64,000 bases of DNA from Apostichopus japonicus (taxonomy: Eukaryota > Echinodermata > Holothuroidea > Aspidochirotida > Stichopodidae). The translations under genes and the position numbers were made by a program. The notes under the pieces were generated by a model that ran no database searches, had not been told where the DNA came from, and saw only the letters and a program-made list of their open reading frames with translations. The number at the start of each line of letters is the position of its first letter. The stretch's first letter is position 1. This document shows positions 13,701 to 55,520 of the stretch, in pieces. The stretch is taken from assembly GCF_037975245.1 (NCBI RefSeq), contig NC_092562.1, positions 2,701,001 to 2,765,000 of the forward strand, given 5' to 3'.

Positions 13701-16700
13701 TATACATGATGGTACATTTTAAAGAGCCTTTCAATGTCATCGTTACAGCCGGCGTCGAACGATGAATACATCAATAAGATCAGGAAGAGGTTGCAGGAAG
13801 ACGCAGGAGCCAGGAAAGAGAGAGAAAAGAGAAGAAGGAAGGTCCTGGTAGACCAGCTCAAAGCCCACGAAGAACAAGAGGTAGATTAGTATGATTAGGA
13901 AGGTCCTGGTAGACCAGCTCAAAGCCCACGAAGAACAATAGGTAGATTAGTATGATTAGGAAGGTCCTGGTAGACCAGCTCAAAGCCCACGAAGAACAAG
14001 AGGTAGATTAGTATGATTAGGAAGGTCCTGGTAGACCAGCTCAAAGCCCACGAAGAACAATAGGTAGATTAGTATGATTAGGAAGGTCCTGGTAGACCAG
14101 CTCAAAGCCCACGAAGAACAAGAGGTAAATTAGTATGATTAGGAAGGTCCTGGTAGACCAGCTCAAAGCCCACGAAGAACAAGAGGTAGATTAGTATGAT
14201 TAGGAAGGTCCTGGTAGACCAGCTCAAAGCCCACGTAGAACAAGAGGTAAATTAGTATGATTAGGAAGGTCCTGGTAGACCAGCTCAAAGCCCACGAAGA
14301 ACAAGAGGTAGATTAGTATGATTAGGAAGGTCCTGGTAGACCAGCTCAAAGCCCACGAAGAACAATAGGTAGATTAGTATGATTAGGAAGGTCCTGGTAG
14401 ACCAGCTGAAAGCCCACGTAGAACAAGAGGTAGATTAGTATGATTAGGAAGGTCCTGGTAGACCAGCTGAAAGCCCACGAAGAACAAGAGGTAGATTAGT
14501 ATGATTAGGAAGGTCCTGGTAGACCAGCTCAAAGCCCACGAAGAACAAGAGGTAGATTAGTATGATTAGGAAGGTCCTGGTAGACCAGCTCAAAGCCCAC
14601 GAAGAACAAGAGGTAGATTAGTATGATTAGGAAGGTCCTGGTAGACCAGCTCAAAGCCCACGTAGAACAAGAGGTAAATTAGTATGATTAGGAAGGTCCT
14701 GGTAGACCAGCTCAAAGCCCACGAAGAACAAGAGGTAGATTAGTATGATTAGGAAGGTCCTGGTAGACCAGCTCAAAGCCCACGAAGAACAATAGGTAGA
14801 TTAGTATGATTAGGAAGGTCCTGGTAGACCAGCTGAAAGCCCACGTAGAACAAGAGGTAGATTAGTATGATTAGGAAGGTCCTGGTAGACCAGCTGAAAG
14901 CCCACGAAGAACAAGAGGTAGATTAGTATGATTAGGAAGGTCCTGGTAGACCAGCTCAAAGCCCACGAAGAACAAGAGGTAGATTAGTATGATTAGGAAG
15001 GTCCTGGTAGACCAGCTCAAAGCCCACGAAGAACAAGAGGTAGATTAGTATGATTAGGAAGGTCCTGGTAGACCAGCTGAAAGCCCACGAAGAACAAGAG
15101 GTAGATTAGTATGATTAGGAAGGTCCTGGTAGACCAGCTGAAAGCCCACGAAGAACAAGAGGTAGATTAGTATGATTAGGAAGGTCCTGGTAGACCAGCT
15201 CAAAGCCCACGAAGAACAAGAGGTAGATTAGTATGATTAGGAAGGTCCTGGTAGACCAGCTGAAAGCCCACGAAGAACAAGAGGTAGATTAGTATGATTA
15301 GGAAGGTCCTGGTAGACCAGCTGAAAGCCCACGAAGAACAAGAGGTAGATTAGTATGATTAGAGTGAGGGACACTTACAAACACACATTCATGGTTTCCT
15401 GAACATCTTTTCTTATTGACATATATTTAGTTCTCATCTGATCAGAGTTCTAGCTGAAAATAACAGCATATGCAATGGTTCATTGCAAACTTTTCTCTCT
15501 TGGAAACATACCTGAAACATACCTTGGAAACATACCTGAAAATACCAGCTATGCTCTAGTTTGATATCAAACAATTCTATAATTGGCAGGTGTTTTGGTA
15601 AAAAAAAAAAATTAATAAAAAAAATTAATAAAAAAAGTATTAAATAGCTGTTGAGCATATTAAGTTGTATGAATCACATTACAGGATACAAGACGAGAGG
15701 AATTATTGGTCAACTGTCTGATGAGACAATCGCAACAGGAGAGAAGAATCGCCACCCAGCTGATGCAGCTACGGAACGAAAAAGCAGTCATCAGAGAGAA
15801 CCGCATCTTCAGGGAGAAGCAGTTTGAGGAGAGAAGACAGAAGGATTTCCAAGAAGCTCTGGATAGGGAAGCAGTAAGTCTACTCCTCCTACCCGTTGTT
15901 TCTCACTCCAGTCATGCTGGAATAAAGCCCATCATTCAAGAGGCCGATCCTACCAATCCGCAAGATTCCTACATACCCATAACAAAATGATTACCCTGGG
16001 ATTGGAAACCATATCTCAGGCATGAGCTTTTACTGCGAATTCGCGGAATATCCGTGATTTTTTTGTACCTCGGGGACAAAAAAATATTTTCCTAACACAC
16101 TGTAGCATACGCAAACTGGAGCCTATACCGCAACTTTTGCAAAGTTCCGTGATTTTTTTTTATCCCAGGCACATCCCTGATATCTAGATTTAGACTTTAA
16201 TATTGAGATTGTTTTTTTTTTTTTATTCTCTCTTACCTGTAAGTGTCATATATGTCTGCTACCGGGAGTACCCCCGTAATTTCTAAAAAGGAAACGGATT
16301 ATGCAGGATTAATAGAGAGAGACTCACCTTATACATTTTCAAAAAACTTATAAATGTAACATTTTCAGGAACTGGCTAACCTCGCAAAGATTGAGTATGC
16401 CGAACAAGTCAAGCGAGACAAGGAACTTCACGACAAGATCGCGGAGGAAAGAGCTGAAGCGAAGTACCGGAAACACTTCAACCACTGTGAGGAGATTCTC
16501 CTCGATCTCGTCGACTTTTCTTGTAAAGTCGGAAAGTACAGAGAGTTAACGAACAAGTAGGACATTTCCCCTTCTTTTTTGTAAACTTTTCACTGGTAAC
16601 TTAGGGCTTACCATCAGTTTTTTTGGGGGGTATTAAATCATTATCTTGTATCTATTTAATAGCTCCCATAGTAATTTCTGTTTTCATTTTCAAAACTGGA

Positions 16701-19700
16701 GATGGTTTTTGTTTTGTTATTATTTATATTTTTATACTGGATGTTTCATATGTGGGTTCATTCAGTGATTCCTGAAATTTCATTCTAAAGAGACCGTAAT
16801 GTTTTCAACACTTGAAATGCATTTTTTAAATTTCTTTCTATTTATCTTTTTATTTTTGTAATATTTAATTAGTATTATTCCCAATTTTGTGGAGTTAAGA
16901 AGGCTTGGCAAGGAAATAGATGTTTGCACCAAAGTTTTGTAAAATTTACAGTCACTTATTTCTTCGATTTTGATCAATTTTTCCATAATATCCAATACCA
17001 AAACCCATATGGCATTCATTGGCTGGACTATTTATCAACTTCCGTGGTTTGAAGAATTTAAGAGTTTTAAAAACAGTTCTGATTTGCTTTTCAGTTGCAT
17101 GTGATTATTCCATTAGCCAATGAGGAAAAGGTGTCTGGTTGACATTGTATTTAGAATCATATTGAATAATGCGTTAGTCAAAAGATATGTTCAAATGATG
17201 AACCGTGGTCCAGAACCTGAAGCCAAACCCAAGATTTTACTGAAAGTGAGACTCCTTTCAAGTCCCTCAGATGATATAGTTTGCGCTTGCTGTCTTTGGT
17301 ACACATAATGGCTATTGTTATCTTTCTTTTTCTTATAGACTCCTACCACCAAAGCTTATGAGGGAATGGACATTACTGTTTACCTCAGGAAAACCTCTCT
17401 ATGAAGAAAAGGTACTTTTGCCAATTTTGTTTGCTTTATACTGCTTCAAGTAGCATAGTTTTCGTATGGAACGCAAAGTCTTTGAGTCAAAATGTCACAT
17501 TCAGTTTCATTTTCAATTTGAATATTGGAAAATGACCATATTTCTTGTCAACAACGGAACAACAGCCAGATCTATTTCAATGCTCTTTCGCCAACGATGA
17601 ATTGAATGGTAACTTTGTGATCTTCTGCCTAAAATGTTACACTCTTGGTAAAAAAAAATGAGAGAAGAGGCTTGAATATGCAACAAATTTTTTCACAATT
17701 TCCTCTATCGTACATAGTAGAAGGTCTTATATAAGTTATGAAAAAATTAAAATCAGCATTAATTTCTTGCTTGTTCTTATTGAACTAATGCTTTTCATTT
17801 GGATTCCTTGGTTGTCATTAAAGTTATGGCATTTTTCCGTCTCTTCTTGCAAGTTTGAAAAGACCACACGTAAATGTACAAATGATACGCAAAGATAATT
17901 TCAATAAAGATGGCATCAAAAAGAAAAAAGGAAAAAAAAGAGTTGAATGGTATTATACAGTATGAAATAATATTAATAGTTGTCATATGGCGATGTGGGT
18001 AAGGGAAGTGTGGTACAGGGAGGTGTAGGTAGTAAGTACCTGGCATTCTGATACATTAAAACCATCAGTTTCCAGGAAACATCCAGGGAAGTCTTTGTGA
18101 GGAGGGAGGGAATACAAAGTGAAATGAAAATGTCGGGAAATTTTTAAAATGATAACTTACACATGAGTGTGGTGTCTATAATCTCTAATACTGTTTTGTG
18201 AAGTTTTACCTTATAATTTCATCCTGTCAGGAGCAAGCTCAAGAACTGTCAAAAGAGGTACCTACGATGGAGATTCCAGAGCCTTCTGATAATGTGGTGG
18301 AGGAGGAGAAGAAGAAGGTTTTAGACGAGGGAGACTTTATGGAGTACAAGGTAAACTAATAAAGTGATATGTTAAAATAAAATATGGGTGGAGGATGGCT
18401 ACTTTATGGAGTAGAAGGTAAACTAATAAAGTGATATATTAAAATAAAATATGGGTGAAGGAAGGCGACTTTATGGAGTACAAGGTAAACTAATAAAGTG
18501 ATATATTAAAATAAAATATGGGTGGAGGATTGCGACTTTATGGAGTAGAAGGTAAACTAATAAAGTGATATATTAAAATAAAATATGGGTGAAGGAAGGC
18601 GACTTTATGGAGTACAAGGTAAACTAATAAAGTGATATATTAAAATAAAATATGGGTGGAGGATTGCGACTTTATGGAGTAGAAGGTAAACTAATAAAGG
18701 GATATGAAATATGGGTGAAGGAAGGCGATTTTATGGAGTACAAGGTCAACTAATGAAGTGATATATTAAAATAAAATATGGGTGAAGGAAGGCGACTTTA
18801 TGGAGTACAAGGTAAACTAATAAAGTGATATATTAAAATAAAATATGGGTGAAGGAAGGCGACTTTATGGAGTACAAGGTAAACTAATAAATTGATATAT
18901 TAAAATAAAATATGGGTGAAGGAAGGCGACTTTATGGAGTACAAGGTAAACTAATAAAGTGATATATTAAAATAAAATATGGGTGGAGGATTGCGACTTT
19001 ATGGAGTAGAAGGTAAACTAATAAAGGGATATGAAATATGGGTGAAGGAAGGCGATTTTATGGAGTACAAGGTAAACTAATAAAGTGATATATTAAAATA
19101 AAATATGGGTGAAGGAAGGCGACTTTATGGAGTACAAGGTAAACTAATAAAGTGATATATTAAAATAAAATATGGGTGAAGGAAGGCGACTTTATGGAGT
19201 ACAAGGTAAACTAATAAAGTGATATATTAAAATAAAATATGGGTGGAGGATGGCGACTTTATGGAGTAGAAGGTAAACTAATAAAGGGATATGAAATATG
19301 GGTGAAGGAAGGCGATTTTATGGAGTACAAGGTAAACTAATAAAGTGATATATTAAAATAAAATATGGGTGAAGGAAGGCGACTTTATGGAGTAGAAGGT
19401 AAATTAATAAAGTGATATATAAAATAAAATATGGGTGAAGGAAGGCGACTTTATGGAGTAGAAGGTAAACTAATAAAGGGATATGAAATATGGGTGAAGG
19501 AAGGCGATTTTATGGAGTACAGGATAAACTAATAAAGTGATATATTAAAATAAAATATGGGTGGAGGATGGTATTTTATGGAGTACAGGATAAACTAATA
19601 AAGCGATATAAAATATGGGTGAAGGAAGGCGACTTTATGGAGTACAGGATAAACTAATAAAGTGATATATTAAAATAAAATATGGGTGGAGGATGGTATT

Positions 19701-22700
19701 TTATGGAGTACAGGATAAACTAATAAAGCGATATAAAATATGGGTGAAGGAAGGCGACTTTATGGAGTACAGGATAAACTAATAAAGTGATATATTAAAA
19801 TAAAATATGGGTGGAGGATGGTATTTTATGGAGTACAGGATAAACTAATAAAGCGATATAAAATATGGGTGAAGGAAGGCGACTTTATGGAGTACAGGGT
19901 AAACTAATAAAGCGATATAAAATATATGTGAAGGAAGGAAACTTTATGGAGTACAGGATAAACTAATAAAGCGATATAAAATATGGGTGAAGGAAGGCGA
20001 CTTTATGGAGTACAGGGTAAACTAACAAAGCGATATAAAATATATGTGAAGGAAGGAAACTTTACGGAGTACAGGGTAAACTAACAAAGCGATATAAAAT
20101 ATATGTGAAGGAAGGAAACTTTACGGAGTACAGGGTAAACTAACAAAGCGATATAAAATATATGTGAAAAAGGAAACTTTACGGAGTACAGGGTAACTAA
20201 TAAAGCGATATAAAATATATGTGAAGGAAGGAAACTTTACGGAGTACAGGGTAACTAATAAAGCGATATAAAATATATGTGAAGGAAGGAAACTTTACGG
20301 AGTACAGGGTAACTAATAAAGCGATATAAAATATATGTGAAGGAAGGAAACTTTACGGAGTACAGGGTAACTAATAAAGCAATATAATGCAATAACTGTT
20401 TGGTTCTGGTGTGCCTGTGATAGTAGAAGCATATATACAGTAGATGTCTGTGTACTTAGTTTCAAGATTCAAAAAGAGTCAACACAAAATAGTCATAGCT
20501 AAGTTACTAGATCTCTCTGTATCTAAGCAGACGATGTCCATCAAATTCATTGTAATGTTACTTTATTTAGGGTCGTCTTTGCCCTAGTCGGCTTAAAGAT
20601 ATAGTTCATTGAATCAAAACAAATATACAGGGTACTATACATAACCAGAAAAAACCCACTAGAGAAGTAAAATTTACAGAAAAACCTTCAAATGATCCAT
20701 ATGGGTCATTGCTTGTTTGTACCATGAAGAGTCCACCCAAGGTTATGACTTTTTTTCTTATCCTATCTAATGACCTCTTTTACCATTTCTTTTCTTCAGA
20801 GCATGGTCGGTGAGTGGGAGCCACCAGGTGACTGTGGAATTAAAGGACCACCAAAGGATAATGCCGTATTAGGACATGTTTTAGCCAATATATTCAGCAT
20901 CGTTGCTCCCCCTACAGTAAGTAGAAGCATAATTTCACATCTTTTCACTTTTGTTCTGTTCAATGTATGGTAAGAAATTTTATCTTCTATCGAGATGTGA
21001 ACCTAACAATAAGTGTCATAATAAGCTTGCTATAAACCTGTGTATCGCATTGTATAATATCAACCAAGCTTTATATACAGAGCTATTATCATACTGTAAC
21101 AACAAATTTAAGAAAATTTTTTATCACCATTTATATTAACTTCTTAAAGCAAAAACTGTGGGCTCATATGCAGGATTTCATTTCCAAAGAGTTACCCTTT
21201 AGTGTGGTAAATTGTGATACATAGTTTGCCACTTCTACCCATATTCTGTCATGTACACACACACACAAAGATAATGAACAAAAACTAGTCAAATTATTAT
21301 TATAAATTTGGACAGAGATTCAAAAATATCATAAAACTGAAATGCAGGAAGTATTTCTGTAAAAATGAATTACTTGATTTGGAATAGCCGTAATTTGCTG
21401 TATTCTGATTATTTTCCACATTTTAATTTTGCAGCCACCTCTTGCTCCTCCTGACATGCCTCCGTTTCCAGTCAAAGCTTGCTTTCTTGGCAAAGCATTC
21501 TCTGGCAAATCAACGGCTGCTCAACAAATGGCAAAGGGTAAGTATTTCTTATTTAAATTATTACATTTAGTTTAAATTTTTCTCTTGCAATTTAGACTTA
21601 AACAAGATTGTACCCTATTTGCCCAGATCCTAGTATAAAACATTACACTGATGCCTCAGATGGTGCCTCCCCCCCCCCCCTCTCCCTCTTCTTCTTTATT
21701 TTCTTGTCATTATATTAAATTGATTAATTTTTGTTTAGGTCATGGTTTAGCTGTGCTGAATGTGGATGAGTTAGTCCAAGAAGCTGTGGATGCTTACAAA
21801 GCTGGGGAGGCTCTGGAGGTTACCCTTGTGCCTGAGGTATGTACAGTTCTAGTTTCCATTCCAGACCTCATGCTTGAGGTATGTTAGTTCTTTCTCATTC
21901 CATACCTCAAGTTTGAGGTATGTTATTTATAGTTCTCAATCCATACCTCATGTCTGAGGTATGTTAGTTCTTTCTTATTCCATACCTGATGTTTGAGGTA
22001 TGTTATTTATATTTCTCAATCCATATCTCAGGCATGAGGTATGCTAGTTGTATTTCTCAATGCATACCTCATGCCTGAGTTGTTTTTTTTACTTTTTTTT
22101 TTTTTCATTTCTGTGCTGTGATCTCCAGGTAGAACCCCCCATGCCTGCATGAGATGTGTTCCTACATTACTCACTTTATGTTAATGTTTTCCACAAAGTA
22201 CTCTTGTTTCTTTAGGGCATAGTTTCTTAATCACTAGAATCATGCATGACTTGTATCCAAAGAGGAAGGCCCTGATTTGAGTGTTGGATAAAACTACCCT
22301 ACAATCTCCTACAAAACAGTTGTTCAAAGCTATCACAACCGACATCAACATTCTTGATTTCTTTCTCAGGCTGAGGTTGCTGCAGGGGATGCAGACAATA
22401 TAGCCACCCCTAAGCCAGGGGAAGCATCTACTCAACCAAGCTCAGCAGATGAGCAGAAAGAAGGTTTGTGGAAGTCCTTCATCTAATTTGTAAAACCGTT
22501 TATTGTACAGTGATGTTATTAACAACTAAATGAACTCTTGTAGTGAGTATGTGAAACAAAAAATTCTGATGAAATGCCCCAATAAAGGATATCTGCATTT
22601 CTGTCTTTGGGGCCGGTTGATCATCTACAGTTTTACTCTGCTATAAAAGGAAGAAAGAGTTTCTTTAAAGCTGTTGTTTAAAATATAACATAATGCTAGG

Positions 22701-25700
22701 CACAAAAACATGTCCCTTTTTTTTTCATAGCAAACGATGTGCAGGATATATTTACTTCTAACTTATTATATTTCAAGAAAAGAAGATTTGCTTTTCATTG
22801 TGAAACTGACACAACTATGGTACGAAGATATCAAGCCAAAATAAGAGATTATCCATAGTTTTCTCTCAGCATTGGTATGGATTATTCTTACTGCATTGTC
22901 TCATGCACTATATAGTCACACGGAATATTTGAATACATTTTAAAAATTTGCTCGATTTGGCGTTATTTTTGTCATCAGTCACTCCTTCTCCAGTGGCCCC
23001 TCCAGTAACCACGGAAACAGCAGGGACAGTCGAAACATCAGAGAAAGGTGAGATCTCGGTCTTTTCGGTTTTACTTTTAGCAAAACAGCTATCAGTAATT
23101 GCAAAAAATCATGTTAATGACACATATATTCCTTACCTGTACATTCCTGTAAAATCTGGTCAGTGCTACTTAAAAGATAAAATTGTCCATTACCTGTGTT
23201 GGTTGAACATGATGTCATTGAGTCCTGAGATAAATCAGTTAATGTTAGACATAATGACATAATAAAGTTTGACATTTCTAATAGGATCAGCATCTGGTAC
23301 TAATCTTTATATTTGCCAAGTGGCAAAATCCTTAGTCTTTTAGTAAAAAAAAAAATTACTTTAAGTACACTGTAAAGCTTGAATTTGAACCCTGTACAAC
23401 AGTTGCTAGCATAGTAGTTGCTTTGGAATCTTGTCTTCAGTAGGATTCCACCCAATTCTGATATTCCAGGATGAACTTGTCAGGATATCATTGAAATGTT
23501 TGCTCAAACTTGAGAACCAAAGTGGAAAATGTGATTACAATACGCAGCTTTGAATAATGACAACATTGTTCAATTGTTTAATGAAGTGAACATTGTTCAA
23601 TGAAGTATACATTGTTCAATGAAGTGAACATTGTTCAATTGTTCAATAAAGTGAACATTGTTCAATTGTTCAATTAAGTGAACATTGTTCAATTGTTCAA
23701 TGAAGTGAACATTGTTCACAATGAAGTGAACATTGTTCATTGAAGTGAACATTGTTTAATGAAGTGAACATTGTTCAATTGTTTAATGAAGTGTACATTG
23801 TTCAATTGTTCAATGAAGTGAACATTGTTCAATTGTTGCCATGAAGTGAACATTGTTCAATTGTTGCCATAAAGTAAACATTGTTCAATTGTTCAATGAA
23901 GTGAACATTGTTCAATTGTTCAATGAAGTGAACATTGTTCAATTGTTCAATGAAGGGAACATTGTTTTGTGAAGTAAGGTCAAACTGTCTCTGACTCTGA
24001 GAGGTTTATTCTGTTTTCACATATTTCACCTTTTCTATTTCTGTACCGTCACATTCAGCTGATGATGAAAAACTAACAGAGGGCAAAGAAGAGGATAATA
24101 ATAATTCAGCCCGAGATGGCAAGAAACTAAAAGCAGAGGTAAGGTCTGTCCCCTCACGCCCTTCCCACCCTCCCACCCTCCCGGCCCCTCCCCTCTTTTC
24201 AGTGGATGTGTTGTTGCGGCATACTGTAGTGCTCCGGAAGTGAAACATATGTTAGTAATAAATATCATTGTCTAGTCAAAGGGGAAACAAAGCACTCTTG
24301 TAAAAATTAACTTCAATCCTTCTTTTTCAACTGCACTGCAGTAAACGTACTCATTACTTTGTTGTCACTGCAGTAAACATACTCATTACATTTGATGTTG
24401 TTTGTTTTATTTATTTCAGCTCACACCGAGGGCAAAATTGGGACAAAAGGCTTCCAGACTCATCAAGAAAGGCCTTCCAATCAAAGATGAATTTCTGGTA
24501 GATGTGATGACAGAAGCTGTCAAGTAAGTTTGCTTTTCATATTTAAAACAGATTAAAACTCACACTTTAATCTGACTTCACAGTACTTTATCGAGAAGTA
24601 ACATTACAGCTTTGTGTTGACTCATTATAAGTAACGTTAGAAGTACTAATTACTCTCTCAATGTGAACAAATGATGAAATAATGAGCAAAAGAAATTGTC
24701 AGACAATAGAATTTTTAACTTGATGATTAAAAACAATACAATGGGTTGTCTTAATCCATAAAAATCATAAGTGTTATACCAGCACATACGATTCCTGTAT
24801 TCGGTAGTTAGCCCTTTTATTGGAAAACTTTCATTTCATTGCACAAAGGGACATCCAATTGGGCTACATTTGCTGGACTCCCCCCCCCCACTCCCCCCCC
24901 CTTGTAGATGTATCCATGCTGTGTACAGGAAATTAAGAAAAATCACTTGCCAGAGTCCTGTCTGGTGTATTAGCAGAAGGTTGTAGGGTGAGTGTCAAAC
25001 ATGGATTTGGCAAACGGTTTAACATACCATGACTCTAAGTTATACATCAGTAATAGCTCACATTAATATGTGGTAGCATTCATAAGTTAGATAACCATCC
25101 CAGTATAGACTACAGATGGTGATAGGAGGCCATTTTCTCTTTCTTTATTTCTTTTTTTCTCCCATAAATGATACACTTTTGTTTTGAAATACATGCATTT
25201 CATGCATCGTCGTTCTTACCTTCAGACGAGTCAAGGAGGAGAGAGGATGGATCATGGACGGGTTTCCAGCTACGGTGAATCAAGCTAAACTCTTAGAGAA
25301 GGCGCTCAGCGGGTACGATGCCAATGCCAAACCATCCAAGGCCAAGCTGAAGCAGAGCAGATTGGCCCCCGATCCTAACCCACCAAAGGACCCACCTCCC
25401 CCCATCAGTGGGATTGACATGGTGATACTCCTGGATGTATCCGATGACCTGGCTCTCAGAAGGGCGGCGGGTCGTACGTGTAAGTTTGTCTCTGGCAAGT
25501 GGGGGAGGAGTGGGAGGCTGTGAGAAACAGCAACTCATTAGACAGTAGTTTTATAGTATATGATACTTCAAGAAGTGGTGAATGGTGACCAAAATTGCAA
25601 CAATCTTAATTGCTAGATAATCCCAAGGGATACCATGATGTACTACTGCCACAAAAAAAGAAAAAATGACATTGGCTTCCTTTTTTTTCTCTTTCTGAAC

Positions 25701-28700
25701 TTTCCATAATGACATGTCATAATAGTTATCACTTGAAGGCAAATTTGTTACAATCTTGGATGTTCTGACATTTGCGGTCACAAAGAGATCTTGTGCGAGT
25801 AATTTGCGCTCTTTTAATCTGTATTTTCAATTTGCAACAGCCCAATGTATAAGCTGTTCTGTCTGTTTGCTTGCTGTGAAATTTACACCATTTGAACCTT
25901 AAAAATGGATCATAGCAGTTGAATGTTTGGTGATATTTAAACAGTGGAATCTCTCACTCTGGGATGAGAATAGAGATGAAGAGAATTTGCTTGTTTATAG
26001 AGTTAATTATGGAATTCCAGTTGATCTCAATGCTTCAATGCTCGCTTGGTAAGCAGCACTGGGGACAACGTTGCACTGGCATTCATCCCTGCTTCCCAAA
26101 CAGTTTCCTTGGAGACGAATGTCATGGAGGCTACTCACAACACACTGAATGTCTAAGATACAAAAATCATCCAGTAGATACTCTATGCACATTGAATGAT
26201 TAGATTGCACATTGATTGATCGTTACTAAAAACCAACATCCCAGAAACATTTATCAAAACTGGAGAAACTGTTATTGTGTGTCAAGACGTTCAAACTGTG
26301 AGATCCCATTGGAAACATTGTTTACCAATTAACTGTATGTTATCTTCCTACCGATCCCACGACCCACCCGAAAAAGTTTTACCACCCATGCTTGGGGGTT
26401 GTAATCCGTGGCTTGGAAAGGTGGGTCTACCCATCGTCTTTCCTAATGTATCCGTCATCTGTTTTCAATCGCCAGTTGCTAGTCAGTCTGGAGAGGAATA
26501 CCAGCAAGAATTTAAGCCACCACCAGATGGGAGCACCACGGGCGTAGGTAAACAGGAGAAGGTGTTACCCATGAAGGATGCGGCACACGACCAAGAGCAG
26601 ATACAACATAGGTCGGACATACTTTGCGGTCAACTCAAACCTTTTTGTTTAACTTTTGGAGACATATCGATATAGATTTGCAATGCGATGTTTGAAACTA
26701 ATTCCTCTGCTAGAATGAACTAGTTTACCTCATTGGACACACAGGTGTTTCAATAGTTGTTTGTTTGTCCTGCGGTGGTAATGGTCAAACTCTGTTTATG
26801 AAAAAGCTGCAAAACGTTTGAAATGACATCTTAGTCTGAGGAGACAAAAAGGATAGTTTTGCAGAAACAAAACACTGATTTTTGACAAAATAAAACAAGA
26901 AACAAACCACAGGTTCAGCAACGTGTGGTGAAATAATCCATTGTTCCGCAGGCACGTTCTTCCGTAAGACGAATATTTCTCATTTTTCGTTCTAACATGT
27001 TTCTTCAATTCACCAGGTTGACAGGGTTCCAAGACTCCTGGAAGAAACTAGATAAATGGTATTCGTCGTTTGGAATTTTACTGAAGTTGGAAGCAGAAGC
27101 CAAGAAAGAAGAACTCTTCATCTCAGTGGAAAACCTCATGGAAACTGCTAAAGATCAGGTAAGTTATAAATAACTGTCACTTTTACAGTTATTACTCCAT
27201 TATTTGTTCTCGAGGAGCAATTTTACTACAGTAGATATAACAATAGTACTGGCCTGGAAGGCAGTTATTTTGATGATGCTATTAGCAGAAACATACGAAC
27301 GTGGAACAAGCCAAATGGCTTCACGTCTGTTGGTTATCCAAGTTACAAGGTTAGCTCTGTTTTGGATCTTAGAATTCTTAGGTCTGAAAATAAATCTTGA
27401 AAATGATCAAAAATTTTGACAGGTCTTGTTGCAATAAAAGGAACCTACAATGTCATGTGTTTAAGTTGCTCGTGATTTCATACATTTCCTTTTTGCGTTT
27501 GGTTTGTTGTCTTGCTTTTTCTCCTCTTCTTTTGGGGGGATTTGGGTGGTTTATTTTAAAATTTTTAGTGGGTTTTTATTTTTGGTTGAGGAAATTGGTA
27601 CTGATAGAATATTCACTCTTTGAAATAGTTATGTCAATCTCTCATGAAGATTTACATCGAAACAATGAATCTTCTGTAATCTTACTCAAGACAATAACTA
27701 CTAACTATAAAACAACACTCGCTGCAAAACTGACTGATATTTCATCTTCCCTCATCGTCAGATATCTTCCTAAATCATCTTTTTAAGCTAGATCATTTGC
27801 ATACACATCTGATGGATTTTGTCACAGACTGCAAAAAGTGACCAGATTTTCGATATCGGATAACTTTCCTTTTTAAGATTCTGCAAGCGAGGACGGAAGC
27901 TATAAAGAAAGAAGAGGAGGAGGCGGAGAGAGTCCGATCCGAGGCGGCCCTCGCAGAGGAGCAGCTGTCATCGCTATCCACCGGTGGTTTGGACTCGGGA
28001 GCACCTCAAGCAGGAGATGTACAACAAGTCAGTATAGCCCAGACATGTCCCCTTTCAACCTTCTGTTCTTGTATTAAACACCATATCCATATGTCTCGAA
28101 TGTTTAAGGGCTACAGTTTGTGCTGTGGAAGCGTGAATGGACTATGCTGATCATCAGTTTGGTTGTCATTATAGGAACCATGTGCGGCCATCTGAAAAAG
28201 TTAACTTTCTGTTGCTTGCAAATAACGTTTTGTTGGTGTCGCTACAAAATGCAGACAGTAATGAAACGTGATACCTTAATTGTTAACTTTAGCTGGACCT
28301 GAGATGTCCATCACTGTATTGTTTATACACTGTGCTGTGGGTATTGACTGCAGTTGTATGTTCTGACTGTACACTACTGTCTAATTACCGACGGTAGCAA
28401 GCTGTGTGTGTATTTTCTGAGATCGATGGTGGTGTTTAACACTTTTTTCTTTTTGCGTGAGTATTCACACCCTTTAAGACATGAATGCAACCAACCGACC
28501 AACAATATTTGAAAGCTTCTGTTCAAGAATGATTTCATAGCGAGAGAAATTACGCCGCAGACGGTCCCGACTGCAACGAATGTTTCTGTATTGCAATGGA
28601 ATAACCAGAACTCGTTTGCATGGAATGTTCTTACCTGAGTAAACCTGAGGATGAGGAAACGAAATGGTTTTATCATTGCCAATGTCTGTTATTATTATTA

Positions 28701-31700: not shown

Positions 31701-34700
31701 TTATCGTGTAGCATTTAAACATGGTAATTATGTCTTCCTCTGTATACATCAACAGTATAAGGCTGAAGTTAGTATTGTTGTCAAATATAGACTAATGCAG
31801 AGAATAATTGACTGTTCAAATATTGCACAATAGTTTTGAATTTAGTCTCTCTTGCCTGTATTATTGTGTAGCATTTAAACATGGTAATTATGTCTTCCTC
31901 TGTTTACTTCAACAGTATAAGCCTGATGTTAGTATTGTTGTCAAATATAGACTTTAAGGCAGAGAATAATTGACTGTTCAAAGTTTGTACAACAGTAGTT
32001 TTGAAGGCTCAGATGGTTGTCTCTTATTAAATACTATGTTACCTTTGTAAAACATTGCTATACATCCTTGGACATGTGTAGCAATTTGACCATCTTGCAT
32101 GGTATTTTGCGATGCGGAACCGGATAAATTATTCCCTGTAATGTAAAGAGCAAGTAGAACAGAAGTTTAACATAGAAACATATAGATGGTATTTCTGACA
32201 GAAATGTATGATCGGACGATTACAGAAAGTTTTAGCAGAGAATTTCGTACCATCTTTTAGTCACCTTTCTTTGTTTTTTGGTTAGGCTCCCCAAAGAGGA
32301 GTAAATCTCGTAGCAAGTCTCCAAAGAAGAGAACACCAACTCTGGAACCAGAGCCTGAACCGGAGCCACAGCCCCCTCCCGGCCCACCTCCTTCCCGTCC
32401 CGGGGACGAAGATTGGGTCTGGGTCGAGGCCAACATAGACCCAGTGAGTGTAATGTTCAATAGCCAAAAATTAGTTTAACTATTTGTCTACCTTATAGTG
32501 TGTATGATGTAAAATGGTATTACTTGTTGCATAGAGATACTTGCAGCCGAGGTCTGTGGGGGGCCGTTTGAATACATACGATTCCCCAGCTAAGTCAATG
32601 GGAATGCTCAGCATGTTGCACATTGATTACCACAAATCACTCTTAGACTTGGCAAGGGTCTGCAAAATTTACCCTAGAATATATTATGCTGGACTCGAGT
32701 ATGCCGGAAGGTTTGCATGCAGGCGGGATTTTGAGCAGCGGTACGGAGGGACAGGACTGGCATAGGGACACTTATGTCACTGGGCACTCTTTTGATGTTG
32801 TCTCTTTTTCCATAGTTATATTATGAAAATAAGGGTACATTATTCTTAATTCAGTTTTTCCCTTGCCCCCCCCTCCCCCCTTAATCACTGTGTTGCCACA
32901 GTGGAATTTTATATCAAGTTTGCAGGCGGCAATACTTTAAGTATGTATCAACTCCTGTGACAAAAACCAAAATTATGACATTAGAGGAGACACATAGTGG
33001 TCTATGGGATAGAGATAACTGTCATGACCAACTTCCCCAAACAGCTTAAGAAAAACCTTATTCCATTTGGAAGATTTCATAGATTTAGTGTTTTCTTCTG
33101 TACTCATGACTACAGACTTGATCAAGTCTAAATATGACATCATCAAGCCACACGTTCTTCAATTCCTTATGTTTTTCTTTGTTTATTACAATGGTTGTTT
33201 TCTGTAAATGCCGAATGTAACATATTGAGCCTCTTAACATGACTTAATGGTGGTATCGGTTTCAGTGTCAACACTGTTAACATTCTACCATCTGTTTTTC
33301 TGTCTCCTTTGTTGTTTGTTTTTATTTATTATACTATAATTTACTATAGAACCTAGCCCATACCCTAGCACCGCTGTGGGAGAATACCGAACAGACCTAC
33401 ATCTCCACCAACAAGCACACGTTCAGGGACATCCGTACCGAGCGTGAGAACATCTACCATTACTTCTTCTACATTCGCAAAGAGTTTGAGGCCTACCTAC
33501 GTCGCCCCGACAGCAAGCAGGAGTTCGTCTCCGCATTCCAGAGAGAATACAACGAGATTGCGGAAGATATGCGGGAGGACGAGGAAACAAAGGCGGAACT
33601 CCATCAGAGAGTTCAGGTTAGTCCCTTGTGTGCTCTTCTCATATTATCGGGGACACTCAGTATTTGACTCGTCACCCTCATATATTTCTGATCGGGTGCC
33701 GTGTAAACTCCCGGTCATTTTCAAAGTCCTGCCAAAGAAGATGGATGAAATGGTTTAGACCTTTGACCTTTTGGTTGCAGACAGATTTGGGCAAGTACGG
33801 ACTGCCTGATGGAGCAGTCTTAAACGTGAATTAAAAGTCCAAAAACTTTGGAAAAGTCATTTCAAATGGCTAAATCGCAGGATGACCTCACTGTTGTGTT
33901 TGTTCATCAAGAGACATTTATGGAGTCATCCCGATGTGAAATGATGCATTTAAGTTTGTTCAGTTATAAAGCTGGCCTGACTCAACACGACTTGTCACCG
34001 TGGTGACCTGAGTTTTTTTTTTATTATAGACGTCAACTTAAGTTGTACAACTGACCTTCGGTTCACTTTAAGGAATGGTTTCACAACACTCAACGAGTGT
34101 TTTCTGTTAATGAGCAGCTGTGCCCATTCAGAAAAATGTTTCTCAGATTTAACGAAACTGTTGTTTTCTTCGTAATCTCTATTAGGACTTGAAAGAGCAA
34201 CTTTGGGAGATGTCAGACAATAGAAAGCAGGATGCAGAGAATGAGAGGCAGAAAGTGATGGAGGAGGGATGGTTAGAGGATAGACTAGGCTTCCTGACTA
34301 ATAACTACCTCACCCTGATGCAAGTAAGTATTAAAAGTAAACAACAGAAAAACTATAAGTACATCGTTGTTGAGTTGATAAGGGATCAGGTATATTTTCC
34401 ATTGTTAATTGAATTGTTAATCTAATGAAATGCATTGCAATGGAATTTCAATATTTAATAGATTGGGTGGGTGTAGTATTTAAAATTATCCATAGACCAG
34501 TATGCTGATGCATGCAAGGCTATAACGTATCAATTTGTCGATAAATGCGAAGTCAGAAACATATATATATTTTTATATTAATATTCAAGCTGCGTCCATT
34601 TTATTTTTCTTATTCATATTTTTCAAGGGGTTTGGTCATTTTGTTACTTAACATTACTTAAAACTCACTTTTTCTTTTTAGGAATTTCATCGTAAATCTA

Positions 34701-37700
34701 TATTGTTTGTAAAATTATTCCTTCGTTTATATATTTTTTTTATATTAATATTAAAAGCTGCGTCAATTTTATTTTTCATATTCATATTTTAAGGGTTTTG
34801 TCATGTTTGTTGTCATTGTAAAGCGCTCTTGAACATGCTTAAGCATGTAAAGAGCGCTATATAAATCTGGTAAATAATAATAATAAAAAGAGACGAGTCT
34901 CAAGAATATTGACAAAAAAGATAATTCCCAGCTTAACATGAGTTGTTTTTGTCGTATAGTGTGAGGTGGACAGGTACCAGGACACGTTGCGTCTTCTGAA
35001 GGACTATTACCAGGGCGTGGAGGGTAAGATTCCAGAGGAGTACGACTGTCTCTTCACCCGTATTCCGCTGATCGACCTCAGCACCAGCGCGAGGGTGGGC
35101 TCGGCAGCTAACATGAGCGTAGCTCCCAGCGATAGCCAGACGAGGGCGGTGACACCGACCACTCCATCGGCCAAGGGGAAGAAGAGTAAGGAACCGCCTC
35201 AGACAGAGGGAGATGGAGACGAGATGGAGAAGAATCCAAAGTAAGTTTTATTTGTAAAATGTCATATTTCGAGAAAAAAACAGATAAATTTGTCAAATGT
35301 GAATATGTAATATGTCAAATTTCTGGCATGCTGCTCCCTTTAAAGCTAACTTGATAGTGTCTTACACCCCTCAGTTCAGGCTTAAAGATCTGCTTTATTG
35401 GCTCCAATTATAGCATGCTATAGCTAGTAAAGTTTTTGTGATTACGTAATCGACCTGCCACGGTCGTAAATCCACCTCAGGCTCTAAGATTAGCCTGCAA
35501 AGCTTCTAAACACCATTAGGCTCTTTGTGTAACCACTGTGTGGAAATATGTTCATGTCTACAGTGTAGTTAATCATACAGCGTTCACACAAAGACCCTCG
35601 TACAAGAAAAAATATGTGGCAGGCGTTGCAGACTAATCGGTAAAAAGAGGTCATTTTACGACCAAGGCAGGTTGATTATTAAAGTAATCTCAAAAACTCT
35701 TCCATGATAGCATGCTATGGTTGGGGTCTATACAGCAGACCTTTAAATGTTAATTGTTAATCCATTCCTTCATGAGTTTTAATAACTAGAGCGGAAACAT
35801 GTTTAAATTTATAGTAACAACAAAGCAACCCTTGGATGACACTCAACATCTATTGTACTTACCTTGTAAACATGTTATTTGAGGCCAATACAACTCCCAT
35901 GTACACATATTGAGCTTTGTGTTGCATATTAAGGAACTGACCAAATGTCCCAGTGTTAGACTAACTAGTCCTGCCACTTTAATTTGGTTAACCACAGATG
36001 TTTAAAGGACTTATTTTATGGTCATTTATTCAGAACGATTCTAAAATAGTTCCTCCACTTTGGTATTTTGTCTGCTAGGATCCCTCTGGTGCCCAGACGA
36101 CCGACGTCCGCCGAGGGCTTCTTTCCGATCCAGACACCCGCGGGAGACAAAGGGGGCGGCAAAGGTACCAAGAGCAGGGCCGGTAAGAAAGAGAAAGAGA
36201 AACTGGTCCCTACTGCCAGCATCGAGGAGGTATCAGAGAGTCCAGTACCACCCATGGATCCTGATGAGAAGGTAAAATAACTAACCCGTAACAACCAACT
36301 CAAAGTCTTCAGTGTTTAGGGTCGCTGTAAAGACAGGCTTCTAAGGATTGGGTGTGGGTTATATGAGTGTGTCAACAGTACATACGCGCAGGGAGATAGA
36401 AAAACAAGGAAAGAAAGAGTACTGAAGACACACATAGTATAGCAGTTTAGAAACCAACAGTGAACGGTACAGAAAATACAATGTGTGTGAAGCCCTCAGT
36501 GACCCATTGATAGTAATGAAAATTACAGAAACACACAGACAGTTACAAACAAGGTCGTCAATTGCAAAGTAGAAACCTATACAGAGCCTTATAGAGAAGT
36601 AGTAGAGAGCAAAGTAGAGGCTAAGTAGAGACCTATAACCATATAGGCAGGTTTGCAAGGAGATTAGGACAAATCAGATAAAAACTCAGGACCCCCGTGG
36701 TCAAAGCCAGCGCTAGTAACCAACCGTAGGATTCAGAGCGGAAGTGTATTATGGAGATTTAGCCTTACAGACACTTATGGGTGGTAAGCTATGATGCTGA
36801 GCAAGATGAGAAATTGTTCAACATTACAGTGACATCTGAAGAGATAAAAACAACTGCAGAAACAGATGTAAGGCACAGGTAAATTCCAGTTCTTAGGGAG
36901 TGTTAGCTCAGTGGTTAACACCGGTGCCTTTCAATCATAAGGTCCCGAGTTCAAGTCACTCCAAGATTAATGTATTTCGTCCAGTTACAGAGTTGTTTGA
37001 CAATTGACAATTCATAATCATGGACGTTAAATATGAATGTAAGACACTGACTTTGGTCAGCTTGCGGCTTTGATAAGCCAATGATGGCTTCTTCGCGAGT
37101 TCCTGTTTGCAGGAGGATCTAAAATACATACATAAATACATACCAGCCAAATGTTTAATAATTGTATGCATCGTTGTTTTCCTGTAGGTTGTAGGTAACT
37201 CCTCCCTGAGGCTGCTTTATATTTTGGGAGTTTGGTATTTCTCATCTGGTTTGTTTTTCTCTTCTTTCTTTCTTTTCGCATCAGCTCGTGTCCGATGCCT
37301 TTCTGTTTGGGCTGATGAAAGTATCAGAGTTGGTGAGTTCATTCAATTTCAAATATTTTTGAAATGTTTTCTTCTGTCAACACCTGACAAAAGGTCCAAA
37401 GTTTTAGAAATTGAAAATCTAAGTTTGTTTTGTATTCTCAGCCGGGTAGGACTGTATGGAATTGAACAGAAAATTTATACAGTTGATTGAAGATTTTTAT
37501 ATTGTTATCAAGTTTGATGTAGAGTAGAGTCCCTCACCTTTTCACCAGGGATTTTCACATCCTGCTTGATGATAAGCCTACATCTCAGATAATAACATTT
37601 TTATCTATTTTATAAGGTCACTGAAATATGTTCATAGTCAAAAGAAAATGGGAACTGGTTTATGTCAATCCATCAAAACAAAAAACAAAACAATGAACGA

Positions 37701-40700
37701 ACGAACACAGCCAAAGAAATATTGATTCATTTCATATCTGTTATTCTTGACTAGCTGTCCGTATATGGAAATCAAAGAAAGATAGTAATTTGGTAGAATA
37801 CTGTAGTTATAATGATCCATAATGATTTCTGTCTGTTTCTAACATTAGTGAGATAACATAAAAATAATGTAATAATTGGCTACGACCTTCGTTCTTGTCC
37901 TCATAATTCATTTTTCTGTATTTGACAGTTGCTGTTTATATATGTTATGAAGTTATGAATATTACAGCATTCATAAAGAAATCCATACTCCATCTCTAGG
38001 CCTACTACTTCTTACCTCTATATCCTAGATATTTCAAACGTACTACATTTCCTCCCAAATACAGACGTCTTTAAATCCATTAATCAGGCCCTTTAAACCG
38101 ATGCAGCAAGTAAGTTCTTTCATGTATCGGCGTGTAATTTCATCCGGACATTAAAATTATTCATAAAGAAAAGAAAGAATTTGGTAGATTTCCTCTTGAT
38201 TAGAAGCAAGGAGACAATCTGTCTATCTGTCTGTCTGTCTGTCTGTCACTCTGTTTATGTTTCTGAATCACTGCATGATTTTATTATTTTGCTCTCTGCA
38301 TGCCATTGTAGTCTGAAGGTTTTCAGAAAGCTCTTATGGTGAGTAGAGATATCTAGATGGGGGAGTTTTTATCAGCACACAGACCAGATTCATACAGAAA
38401 TCTTCAAGTCCATATATACAAATAGTGAAATGCTTACAATAGCAAAGTTTCAAAAATGTAAGGAGAAAGAGAGAAACATGTTTCAAATTTATCTGGCATG
38501 AGCATTTAAAGCTCATATATATTGCTAATTGGGGATAATAAAAAAAACCTCCCCACCCTTTCCCAGACCCTCTCTCCCTCCTCCCCCACCCCAATTCTTT
38601 TATCCTACATCCCACCTTTTACCCTCTTTGCAGCTTATAGCTTTCACCCTTCTCAAAAATAGAGAAGTCAGAATGTAAACTCAATTGTACGGTGGAAATT
38701 GTGAATTTTGTGACATGAGACCCAGTTTAATATACCCTCCGTCTCTGTCACTGGCCTAGTAGTTTGTTCACACAATTTAATCATTGATGTATGAATTTGG
38801 TCTGTGTGATCAGTTGGATTGCTGTGTTTTTCACTAACCACCCTCACAACATGTAAATTGTGGTCTGCTGTGTTTTGTAGTGTTAATAATATATATTACA
38901 TTGCCTGTGCCGGGAGGTGAAAGTGTAGAAAAGTTATGTCCTGTAAACTGTTTATCTGTTGTGTTAATAAATCATCGTACCACAGAACAGAAGTATGGAT
39001 GGCAGATCGACAAACTAGTAGAGTTAATAAAGTACTTTTACCAAAAGTACAGAGGGCAGAAAGTAATATTGAACTATGAAATGAAGTATAGATAGTAAGG
39101 GAATTTAACTTTTGATAGTTTTGGTTAGTGAGTGATGCAACCTACCATGCAATGGAAGAGTGGAAGGCAGCTTAGTGAATGCTAGATAGTCATGTAGTAT
39201 ACTGCAATGTAGTCATGTTAGAAAGTACCATACTGCAAAATAAAAGAACATGGCAAATCTGTAAGGATTTTTTGTGGGTGTCACTTGGACCACCAGGTCT
39301 TACCTTTTGGTTGAACAAATTTGGTTGTCCGAAGAAATGAAACAACCTGCAAAAAATGACCAATGTAGGAGAGATGTGTAGGTTTTAGAACAGCAATATG
39401 TACACTGTAGGAGAGATGTGTAGGTTTTAGAACAGCAATATGTACACTGTAGGAGAGATGTGTAGGTTTTGGTGAATAGAACACCAATATAATAATAATA
39501 ATAACTAAGATTTATAATGCGCTAATTATAAACAAAATAGTTGTCAAAAGCGCCATACATATAAATATGAATAGAAAGAAAAGCAAAAATAATATGTGTA
39601 CTGTAGGAGAGATGTGAAGGTTTGGTGAATAGACAGCAATATATACACTGTAGGAGAGATGTGTAGGTTTGGTGAAAAGAACAGTAATATGTACACTATC
39701 GGTGAGATGTGTAGGGTTGGTGAATGGAACAGCAATATATACACTGTAGGAGAGATGTGTAGGTTTTGGTGAATAGGACAGCAATATGTATACTGTAGGA
39801 GAGATGTGTAGGTTTGATAAATAGAACAGCAATATATACACTGTAGGAGAGGTGTGTAGGTTTGATGAATAGAACAGCAATATATACACTGTAGGAGATG
39901 TGTAGGATTGATGAATAGAACACCATCAGTGGGCCAGTAAACCTCCCTGGCCTTTGGGTGTCTCAAAGGCCTACCACTATTTTGGTTTTGAATTATCTAC
40001 AAAGTGATGGTGGGTGATACCAATTTATCCTTCTATGGGGGTGTATTTAGTTACAATGCCGTCAGCATCTGATATCACTGAACAATAAGTTGTCCGTCAG
40101 AAAACCTCGAATGCTGTTTCCGGATGTCAGAACAGAAATTTGGTCGTCTTGGGTGACCTGACGACCTCTAAAAATTTAGGTAGTTGCATTTTATAAAATA
40201 TGTTACAATTGTATGAAAGCATGGAATGGAGAGGTAGAAATTCAAAACTTTTATCAGTTGTGTCTATGTATCCTACCGTACATAGAATGAAAGTATGAAA
40301 CCCAGATCTATAGTTCCTTAGCCGTCACCAAATTATAGACAATGGTGACTTTCAAACAATTCTGTGAGGAAGTGAAGTCAAGCAAACAAAGTAACTAGTT
40401 TCAATTTGATAGGAACCCTTCAGTGGTGAGAAATTAAAAACGAGTGGCTAACCCCCCTACCTAACAGTAATAATTCATTAACATTCATTAACATTCATTG
40501 AAACTGATGACAATCCATATAGAGAGATAGGCAGTGTTTGTTGGAAATGTTAAAGGTAGTGAAGTCTCACAAAAAGTGTTTGAATTTGATTGCTTGCAAA
40601 AGTCACATTTATCAATCAAGGGACTGCTGTCTGAGTTAATATGCTGGTAGGTACCATATAAGGAATGCACATTACACCTCCATATTAATACTATACACTC

Positions 40701-43700
40701 ACCAACCTGAATGTAACATTTGTCAAGTTAACATTTCTGGGTAAGCCTGAATAAATTAATCCATAATGTTTTAACCCTACATTTGACAGTGACTTGAGTT
40801 TGTTTCTGCAAAGACATTAACAAATAAATGTAACATTTGTACTGTGTGAGGCTTCGAGCTAAATGCAGTCCACCCCAAGGATTTGTGTGGCTCGGTAGAT
40901 TTAGTTCACCTTATATGGAACACTAATATGGATGATAAATGTCTCACATATTTCACTCAAAGAGATTAATGTATGTCGTCCAGTTACAGAGTTGTTGACA
41001 ATTGACAATTCATAATCATGGACGTTAAATATGAATCTAAGAGACTGACTTCTGTCAGCTTGCGGCTTTGATAAGCCAATGATGGCTTCTTCGCAAGTTC
41101 CTGCTTGCAGGAGGATCTAAAATACAAACATACTGTACATATATACATACATACATACATACACGCACACATACCCCCATACATGTATGTTGTTGGTTAT
41201 GATTCTTGATCATAAATGAGGTATGATAATTGTCTTGATTAACAGACTGCAGCTGAACTTGCTGCCAAGGAAGCTGAAGAAGCTGAGAAGGAGAAAGAAG
41301 CAGAGAAAGGAGGCAAAGGTGGCAAAGGAAAGGATGCTGGCAAGAAAAGAAGCAAGAGCAAATCCCCATCAGGTACTATTCCATATACTGGTAGTGTAAG
41401 AGCAAATCCCCATCAGGTATTATACAACACCTAATTGTATTCTGGTCATTTGATTGGCCAATTGCTCGTTGATTGCATGCAAAATCCGCTCTATTCCATT
41501 CTATGAAATAGAACAATGGGTTTTACTTTTTTGGTAGCACTTTTTTCAATGGTAAGAGAGCAGGGAAACCTGTCTGTTCAAAACAATCTGTTGCATGAGT
41601 GCATTTTACCCATCTTAATATAATATGTTGTATAAAACAAATAATGAATGGTTTCCATTCGTGCAATAGTGCAAATATTTCATTCGTTGAAAGATGTAAT
41701 TTGTTCCAAATTACATCTTTCAACGAATGAAATATTTGCACTATTGCACTCATAACCATTCATTATTTGTATACTATTCCATATACTGGTAGTGTAAGAG
41801 CAAATCCCCATCAGGTACTATTACATATACTGGTAGTGTAAGAGCAAATCCCCATCAGGTACTATTACATATACTGGTAGTGTAAGAGCAAATCCCCATC
41901 ATGTACTATTACATATACTGGTAGTGTAAGAGCAAATCCCCATCAGGTACTATTACATATACTGGTAGTGTAAGAGCAAATCCCCATCAGGTACTATTAC
42001 ATATACTGGTAGTGTAAGAGCAAATCCCCATCAGGTACTATTACGTATACTGGTAGTGTAAGAGCAAATCCCCATCAGGTACTATTACATATACTGGTAG
42101 TGTAAGAGCAAATCCCCATCATGTACTATTACATATACTGGTAGTGTAAGAGCAAATCCCCATCAGGTACTATTACATATACTGGTAGTGTAAGAGCAAA
42201 TCCCCATCAGGTACTATAACATATACTGGTAGTGTAAGAGCAAATCCCCATCAGGTACTATAACATATACTGGAAGTCTAAGAGCAAATCCCCATCAGGT
42301 ACTATTCCAATATACTGGTAGTGTAATGAGCAAATCCCCATCAGGTACTATTACATATACTGGTAGTGTAATGAGCAAGTCCCCATCAGGTACTATTCCA
42401 TATACTGGTAGTGTAGAGTAAAATACTCATAAGGTATCACTAGTAATACTGGTAGTATAATGATGAAATCCCCATCAGGTGTCATTCGTAGTACTGTTAG
42501 TGTCATGTCCCAAGTCCTTATCAAGCACTGTTCAAAGTACTGGTGGTTTAATGATGAGTAACAGTACTGTTATCATTAGTAGTAGTAATAATAACGGTGA
42601 TAATCATTTTCAATGCCATGCACCAATCAGCAGACAGATTTCATTATTATGAATATGCAGTTTCAAAGAGGATGTAAAATAGTCGTCATTGTGAGTGTAT
42701 ATTCTGTTACTTCTTTATCTCTGTAGGCAAAAAGTCACCTTCTGGAAAGAAATCCCCAGTAGGGAAGAAATCACCCAAGAAAGGAAAGAAGGCAGCCACA
42801 CCGACACCACCTCCTACGCCACCACCTGTGGGTGAGTCTTACTTAGACTAAAACTGAGTTGTAATGAGTTGTAACGAGTTGTAACGAATCAATAGATTCC
42901 AAAAGTGAAATGACTTGACCCAAGTTTTTTTACCGTAGAGATGATAATACAGACTCAAGTCAGTGACTCCACTTTAAGTCACAATAATTACTAGCTTAAA
43001 TGACTCGACTCAAACTTAAGTTGAAGTGACTTACTACGACTGTTTTCTTCAAGCAGCTCTTTGTGTTTTGTTGGCCATTTTACCAAACTTTGCGAGTATT
43101 TCCCAAAATGAGATTGCAAAATAATCGCACTTAGCCAGCATTTTAAGTTCATTTAAAAGCAGAAGTTTAATCAGTACATAATTTACTGACATTGTAAAAG
43201 AGTCATACATAATGCAATTTAAATTTTTGGAAACATTTTTTACTTTCTACGTTGAAAAGTTTGGTATTTGCAATTTTTTAAAAGAAACTTACTTTAAGCT
43301 TCTGTATGACCTGGATTTGGGATTTAATTTTTTAATTCTTCTTTGTTTTAAGTTATTAATTCATATTATTTTAATCAAAACCCTGTTAAAAAGTACCTTC
43401 AAAGTTTGTACAATGGGTTTTCTTTGAAAGTGACATATTGTTTGTGCAGCATTTATTATTAAGTTCAAGATTTATGTTAAGGTAGGTTTTCATTCCTAAT
43501 TTTTTTATCATTTTTTTCCCCCATTTCAGCGGAAGTTTCCATGACGCCCGAACAACAAGAACTTCACGAGCGAACAAAGAAGGAATATTTAGCAGCTATA
43601 TCTCATGAGGGTATAGTGGATCTTATCATTATGCCAAAATAATGTGGTTTGAAATCGGGTTGTATTTTGAAAAATACTGTTAACAGATTTTGTAGCAAAT

Positions 43701-55487: not shown

Positions 55488-55520
55488 GGGTTAACCAACT
55501 CGGCACAAATATCTAAAAGG

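Follow-up and report, generated by a model that had tools for sequence, protein, structure and literature searches.

Probable mirage-type minisatellites at donor sites of an echinoderm SPEF2 gene: three introns, or four with that of exon 14

The 'mirages' of amphioxus are minisatellites whose tandem units run across an exon/intron boundary and leave decoy splice signals in the intron. According to parts of the two papers describing them (PMC3087553, PMC3902484), they occur in the Adh3, TnC, globin and PGBD5 genes, splicing is held to be undisturbed by them, the arrays are somatically unstable at Adh3 and a role in intron gain has been proposed. Here we describe related arrays in a 64,000-nucleotide stretch of Apostichopus japonicus DNA (contig NC_092562.1, positions 2,701,001 to 2,765,000; 'the window', to which all coordinates below refer), in the gene SPEF2 (encoding sperm flagellar protein 2; 8599..52767, plus strand). 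Three introns of this gene, four with that of exon 14, probably carry mirage-type minisatellites in which the decoy donors are silent and the donor is chosen by position.

The arrays, all on the plus strand, were delineated by Tandem Repeats Finder (TRF) and by direct reading of the sequence. The last 45 bases of exon 7 (13749..13880, donor GAG/GTAGAT) open array A (13836..15362), which consists of 25 copies of a 61-bp unit with 98% matches (the final 45 bases of the exon plus 16 intronic bases) and contains 24 decoy donors. The last 18 bases of exon 11 (18231..18350, donor AAG/GTAAAC) open array B (18333..20386), with some 33 copies of a 58-67-bp unit (67 bp: the final 18 bases of the exon plus 49 intronic bases) and 32 decoys. 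The third case, array H (41355..42480; 44-bp unit, 16 decoys), takes in the last 18 bases of exon 32 (41246..41372, donor CAG/GTACTA; exon 30 or 31 in alternative models), an exon predicted from coding score and frame only and lacking a tblastn match, and its unit adds 26 intronic bases to these 18. Array H is broken at about 41419-41771, the first two donor copies preceding an interruption of about 350 bp and the remainder lying at 41772-42480. The interruption holds a foldback (41661..41749, strand unassigned; a 43-bp perfect inverted repeat with a 3-nt loop) and looks, by appearance only, like a miniature inverted-repeat transposable element or foldback element. The original prediction, that the ends of exons 7, 11 and 32 lie within the opening unit of a tandem array and that this unit is made up of 18-45 exonic and 16-49 intronic bases, is borne out on both counts: the measured compositions are 45+16, 18+49 and 18+26, and the position of the exon ends is seen by TRF, by direct reading and in the recurrence of the donor sequences.

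For this recurrence, the 24-mer from -12 to +12 at each of 40 donors was sought in its own following intron. With at most 6 mismatches it recurred only for exons 7, 11 and 32 (24, 28 and 16 copies, respectively), the best own-intron match of the remaining 37 of 40 donors having at least 8 mismatches, and 0 of the 40 acceptor 24-mers were repeated. At up to 8 mismatches the decoys number 24 in A, 32 in B and 16 in H, 72 altogether. Within the window the units match nowhere outside their own array at E 0.01. In B (Spearman -0.75) and in H (-0.68, with one double-length unit included and the interrupted stretch omitted) the units are less identical to the exon unit the farther they lie from the exon. 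Array A has no such gradient (Spearman 0.05) and is 98% uniform, and is therefore young or homogenised. A false expansion of the repeats during assembly might be considered, given that in the amphioxus draft the assembly of one mirage looked faulty (as stated in part of PMC3087553), but unit variants recur within the arrays and the divergence in B and H is graded, and an artefact of this kind seems to us very unlikely.

The identity of the gene is supported by Pfam, the gene model, tblastn and PDB matches. In a Pfam scan of eight open frames SPEF2_D5 was found above its cut-off (E 2e-20), and CH_2 and ADK, both domains of SPEF2, matched below theirs. A simple dynamic programme with generic splice matrices and a homology bonus gave a model of 42 exons, and 41 exons (40 donors and 40 acceptors) were counted after hand corrections, several exon ends being set from homology. 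The exon count is some 41-43, with the final exon the least certain, and the numbering differs slightly between models because two small exons (30071-30097, 27 nt, and 37285-37332, 48 nt) are uncertain; the doubtful 48-nt exon was left out of the counts and the 27-nt exon 25 entered only one count of array starts and spanned donors. The spliced model has 1773 residues, and its best PDB matches, 9ijj (Sperm flagellar protein 2) and 7n6g (CPC1), extend over most of its length. Six animal SPEF2 proteins served as tblastn queries; exon matches are given for three of these (starfish, sea urchin and amphioxus), which matched most exons, in order, over 8599-52028, and which had zero match to the low-complexity exons, exon 32 among them. 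In the best local alignments the protein is 58% identical to those of starfish and sea urchin and 47% to that of Branchiostoma lanceolatum. A quick tree of 24 proteins, none of them named as from a sea cucumber or brittle star, placed it within the echinoderms (support 100), away from Branchiostoma, and as sister to the sea urchins (Shimodaira-Hasegawa-like approximate likelihood ratio test 92, below the star level) on a long branch. An amphioxus origin, which mirages might suggest, is rejected on these identities and this tree.

Many of the decoys are not poor donors. Scored with a generic donor matrix, 49 of the 72 (A 20/24, B 16/32, H 13/16) are at least as strong as the true donor, and local strength by this matrix therefore does not explain which donor is chosen. 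The GT is retained in 65 of the 72, all 7 losses being in B. The expectation that the decoys are identical to the true donor holds in part, the whole 24-mer being identical in 15/24 decoys of A and 9/32 of B; it fails in H (0/16) and for the 7 decoys of B without GT. According to the gene model, use of any of the 65 GT-keeping decoys (65/65) would lead to a premature stop, for 64 of them inside the retained array.

The proteins of the relatives indicate which donor is needed. From exon 7 to exon 8 those of starfish, sea urchin and amphioxus run on at the same residue with nothing added, and the passage from exon 11 to exon 12 is gap-free in the SPEF2 chain of 9ijj and in amphioxus, so that array sequence is absent from the proteins of the relatives at both places. 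By this sequence comparison they show the first donor to be the one that exons 7 and 11 would require; for exon 32 first-donor use is presumed, this donor being frame-compatible with the next predicted exon and no more than that. The peptide coded by the repeated end of exon 7 is conserved in the proteins of starfish, sea urchin and amphioxus, and it was therefore the exon that was copied into the array. We observed no sign that intron variants had been fed back into coding sequence, as had also been proposed: the exon 7 unit is the TRF consensus unit of array A, and 4 of the 24 decoys of A carry a stop in their exonic part (the last GAG codon of the exon changed to TAG), variants that would be harmful if returned to the exon.

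These observations also bear on the suggestion that AGGT-containing tandem duplications (the Rogers model) made or moved the intron borders. The units do contain AG/GT, and mirages were proposed as a source of new introns in the amphioxus globin paper (PMC3087553, in the part consulted). However, instead of an exonic duplicate with an intron between AGGT copies we found genuine intron sequence in the units and array edges that do not lie at AGGT, the protein of relatives crosses the exon 7 and 11 junctions without extra residues, and decoy use always ends in a stop. Both the continuity of the relatives' proteins and the intronic part of the units speak against borders created or displaced by the arrays, and we consider remodelling of this type very improbable.

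The choice of donor is probably positional, by way of exon definition, under which, as reported in a portion of PMC9225289, long introns tend to be spliced from the more upstream of competing 5' splice sites when these are of similar strength. In the explanation that we prefer, an exon/donor/intron junction that already existed would by chance have lain within a short segment that was duplicated in tandem, and the array would afterwards have grown through the usual turnover of minisatellites (slippage, unequal exchange). Exon end and donor would still be supplied by the first copy: exon definition would, in introns of 1.3-2.4 kb, pair the acceptor of an exon with the donor closest to it, which is also the first to be transcribed, and the later identical donors would stay silent. 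Because a decoy, whenever used, would bring in a premature stop, selection would tolerate such arrays only as long as they are ignored. Further help in selecting the first donor, for instance from purine-rich exonic enhancers, is likely, since the upstream site won only 60% of all near-equal two-site competitions (PMC9225289, same portion).

That modest rate is one of several points that weigh against mirages with silent decoys. Some 20 competitors may be too many for exon definition to silence unaided, and the silence of the decoys in RNA is something we infer. Exon 32 is without support from protein homology. The enrichment at donors is post hoc and concerns a single gene picked by a reader, and when the null is conditioned on the intron, arrays A, B and H each have a chance of about 10-12% of spanning the donor of that intron. 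An assembly error is a further, small possibility, although the unit variants speak for genuine arrays.

The association with donors was compared with chance over 10 in-gene arrays (of about 150 bp or more and at least 3 copies) drawn from 45 overlapping TRF rows. Short rows, a 1.9-copy repeat at 31686-31996 and arrays outside the gene (1-326 and TA repeats) were excluded, the starts of H (41355) and C (21829) were set by hand, and the rows of D and G were merged. Four of the 10 arrays span a donor and none spans an acceptor. With founder units placed anywhere in array-free introns, 0.40-0.42 donor-spanning arrays are expected (P 0.0004 for 4, 0.006-0.007 for the 3 clear ones); with the intron and the length of each array kept, 0.6 (P 0.0015-0.0018 for 4, 0.016 for 3). 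Six of the 10 arrays begin no more than 50 bases from a donor (at -45..+32), where 1.2-1.6 would be expected (P 0.0004-0.0015); one of the six depends on the doubtful exon 25. Of the array ends, 1 of 10 comes equally close to an acceptor, again with an expectation of 1.2-1.6, which is no excess. The claim that donor arrays are more numerous than chance allows thus stands within this gene (4/10 against 0.40-0.60, P 0.0004-0.0018) as a post hoc and suggestive donor-side excess. Counted from where the array begins, the donor comes after 45, 18, 8 and 18 bases, for which reason nucleation exactly at AG/GT, the other half of that claim, is not supported.

These variable offsets would suit an explanation by coincidence and survivorship, in which a minisatellite-rich gene acquired chance founder duplications on its junctions and harmless donor copies persisted, with no process directed at donors. 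Chance by itself supplies 0.4-0.6 donor-spanning arrays, the four host introns are short without their arrays (about 270-460 bp) and the window was chosen after the fact. The observed number of 4 and the concentration of starts on the donor side, with the acceptors unaffected, speak against it, and we regard coincidence as possible, though on the whole somewhat doubtful.

A bias in base composition was found directly 5' of the three clear arrays. The 40 exonic bases preceding A (13796..13835, plus strand), B (18293-18332) and H (41315-41354) are 90, 80 and 82.5% purine; among all exonic 40-mers of SPEF2 they belong to the highest 0.7, 4.7 and 3.5%. For purines in the stretch 18-58 bases before the donor, exons 7, 11 and 32 rank 6, 3 and 1 of 40 (P 0.001), and in the window from -50 to +30 the donors of A, B and H rank 3, 2 and 4 of 40 for purine and 5, 1 and 8 for GC skew, all of this with n=3 and post hoc after two measures. 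The tracts fit either of two readings, a mutagenic seed (by R-loop or triplex) or a splicing enhancer through which the first donor prevails and the array can survive. Under the former, a purine-rich, G-skewed exon end would cause R-loops, triplexes or polymerase stalls and so tandem duplication just downstream. Exon 14 fits this poorly (purine rank 10/40 at 18-58 bases before the donor and 31/40 at -50..+30, skew rank 13, 55% purine before its array), as do the six other arrays (52.5-65% in the preceding 40 bases), and purine-rich exon ends being splicing enhancers as well, survival of the first donor would leave the same picture. Such a donor-side mutational bias is in our view unlikely.

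Exon 14 (21739..21836, plus strand, donor GAG/GTATGT) is a weaker case, as had been anticipated. Its donor lies at the edge of array C (21829..22079, plus strand), built of palindromic units of about 41 bp with the donor-like GAGGTATG and, in alternation, its reverse complement CATACCTC, and about 8 exonic bases are repeated in the array. The similarity of the donor segment to array C beats that of 99.8% of random gene segments (P about 0.0015). The possible exon 25 (30071..30097, plus strand), a frame-compatible open reading frame that is absent from the automatic model, had likewise been put forward. From its donor it is 26 nt to the start of array E (30124-31319), but donor and unit are no more similar than chance would give (P 0.16 with one query length, 0.09 with another) and the case was dropped.

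Two further candidates were rejected. Array J (38-bp unit, 46403-47191) stops 5 bp short of the acceptor belonging to the exon at 47197, and array sequence thus makes up the 3' end of the preceding intron; as an acceptor-side mirage it fails, the acceptor 24-mer not recurring. The array at 1-326 (105-bp unit, reaching the edge of the window) begins 46 bp beyond a putative donor in a neighbouring gene on the minus strand and does not span it. We also noted an array with a 52-bp unit (52061-52218) that begins 32 bp past the donor of a late SPEF2 exon. Adjoining SPEF2 is a gene of the Tctex-1 family (54918-55490, minus strand), whose protein has three database matches, of 99%, 54% and 46%, the last from Holothuria leucospilota. 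An Rfam scan at gathering scores gave no match.

With three to four mirages in one gene, the underlying process may be common and overlooked. The arrays amount to natural experiments on splice-site choice, the competition being among as many as 32 near-identical donors, of which the first alone is apparently used, and models of exon definition and of first-transcribed-first-used become directly testable on them. They are also live material for ideas on intron growth. A more far-reaching idea, which we advance with considerable reserve as improbable on present evidence, is that the donors of invertebrate deuterostomes are generally subject to tandem duplication by a mutational process linked to transcription, junction-spanning arrays being seeded time and again just downstream of exon ends that are rich in purines and prone to R-loops or triplexes; if true, arrays would lengthen introns and build reservoirs of silent donors of functional strength.

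Several described systems can be compared with this anatomy. In introner elements similar sequence is dispersed at unrelated sites; for the SPEF2 units the comparison covers the 64-kb window, where they match only inside their own array. The internal tandem repeats of human segmental duplications (parts of PMC2812944) are likewise minisatellites at exon-intron boundaries (mean unit 30 bp); they vary between paralogues and change transcripts, whereas SPEF2 exons 7 and 11 show no coding change relative to relatives. In the duplication-made introns of ATP2A1 and potato RdRp (parts of PMC4974935) the tandem duplication also includes splice signals, but there a new intron is created, and the SPEF2 arrays sit in introns that most likely pre-existed. 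The proximity rule for competing 5' splice sites, in the portion of PMC9225289 cited above, has in common with our case the preference for the upstream donor in long introns at near-equal strength, and SPEF2 differs from it in having many near-identical competitors per intron.

The closest likeness is with the amphioxus mirages (Adh3, TnC, the globins Gb6/Gb9 and PGBD5), with which, as far as the consulted parts of the amphioxus papers describe them, the SPEF2 arrays share tandem units over an exon/intron boundary and intronic decoy splice signals. Both hallmarks are present here, the repeats spanning the boundary and the splice signal being kept in the copies (65 of 72 with GT). Mirages have been reported in cephalochordates, and the arrays described here fall outside that distribution, given the place of the gene among echinoderms in the tree; among the open-licence papers searched for hemichordates, sea cucumbers and echinoderms, at the level of titles and beginnings of abstracts, such arrays were not found in those groups. 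On the same partial reading of the sources, SPEF2 differs in being an echinoderm gene, in having three to four cases in one gene and in being affected at donors only, against both boundaries in amphioxus, and its copy numbers are larger (17-33 against 6 and 3 units in globin Gb6). The phenomenon itself is already known, and the SPEF2 arrays extend the little-known amphioxus mirages to another phylum.

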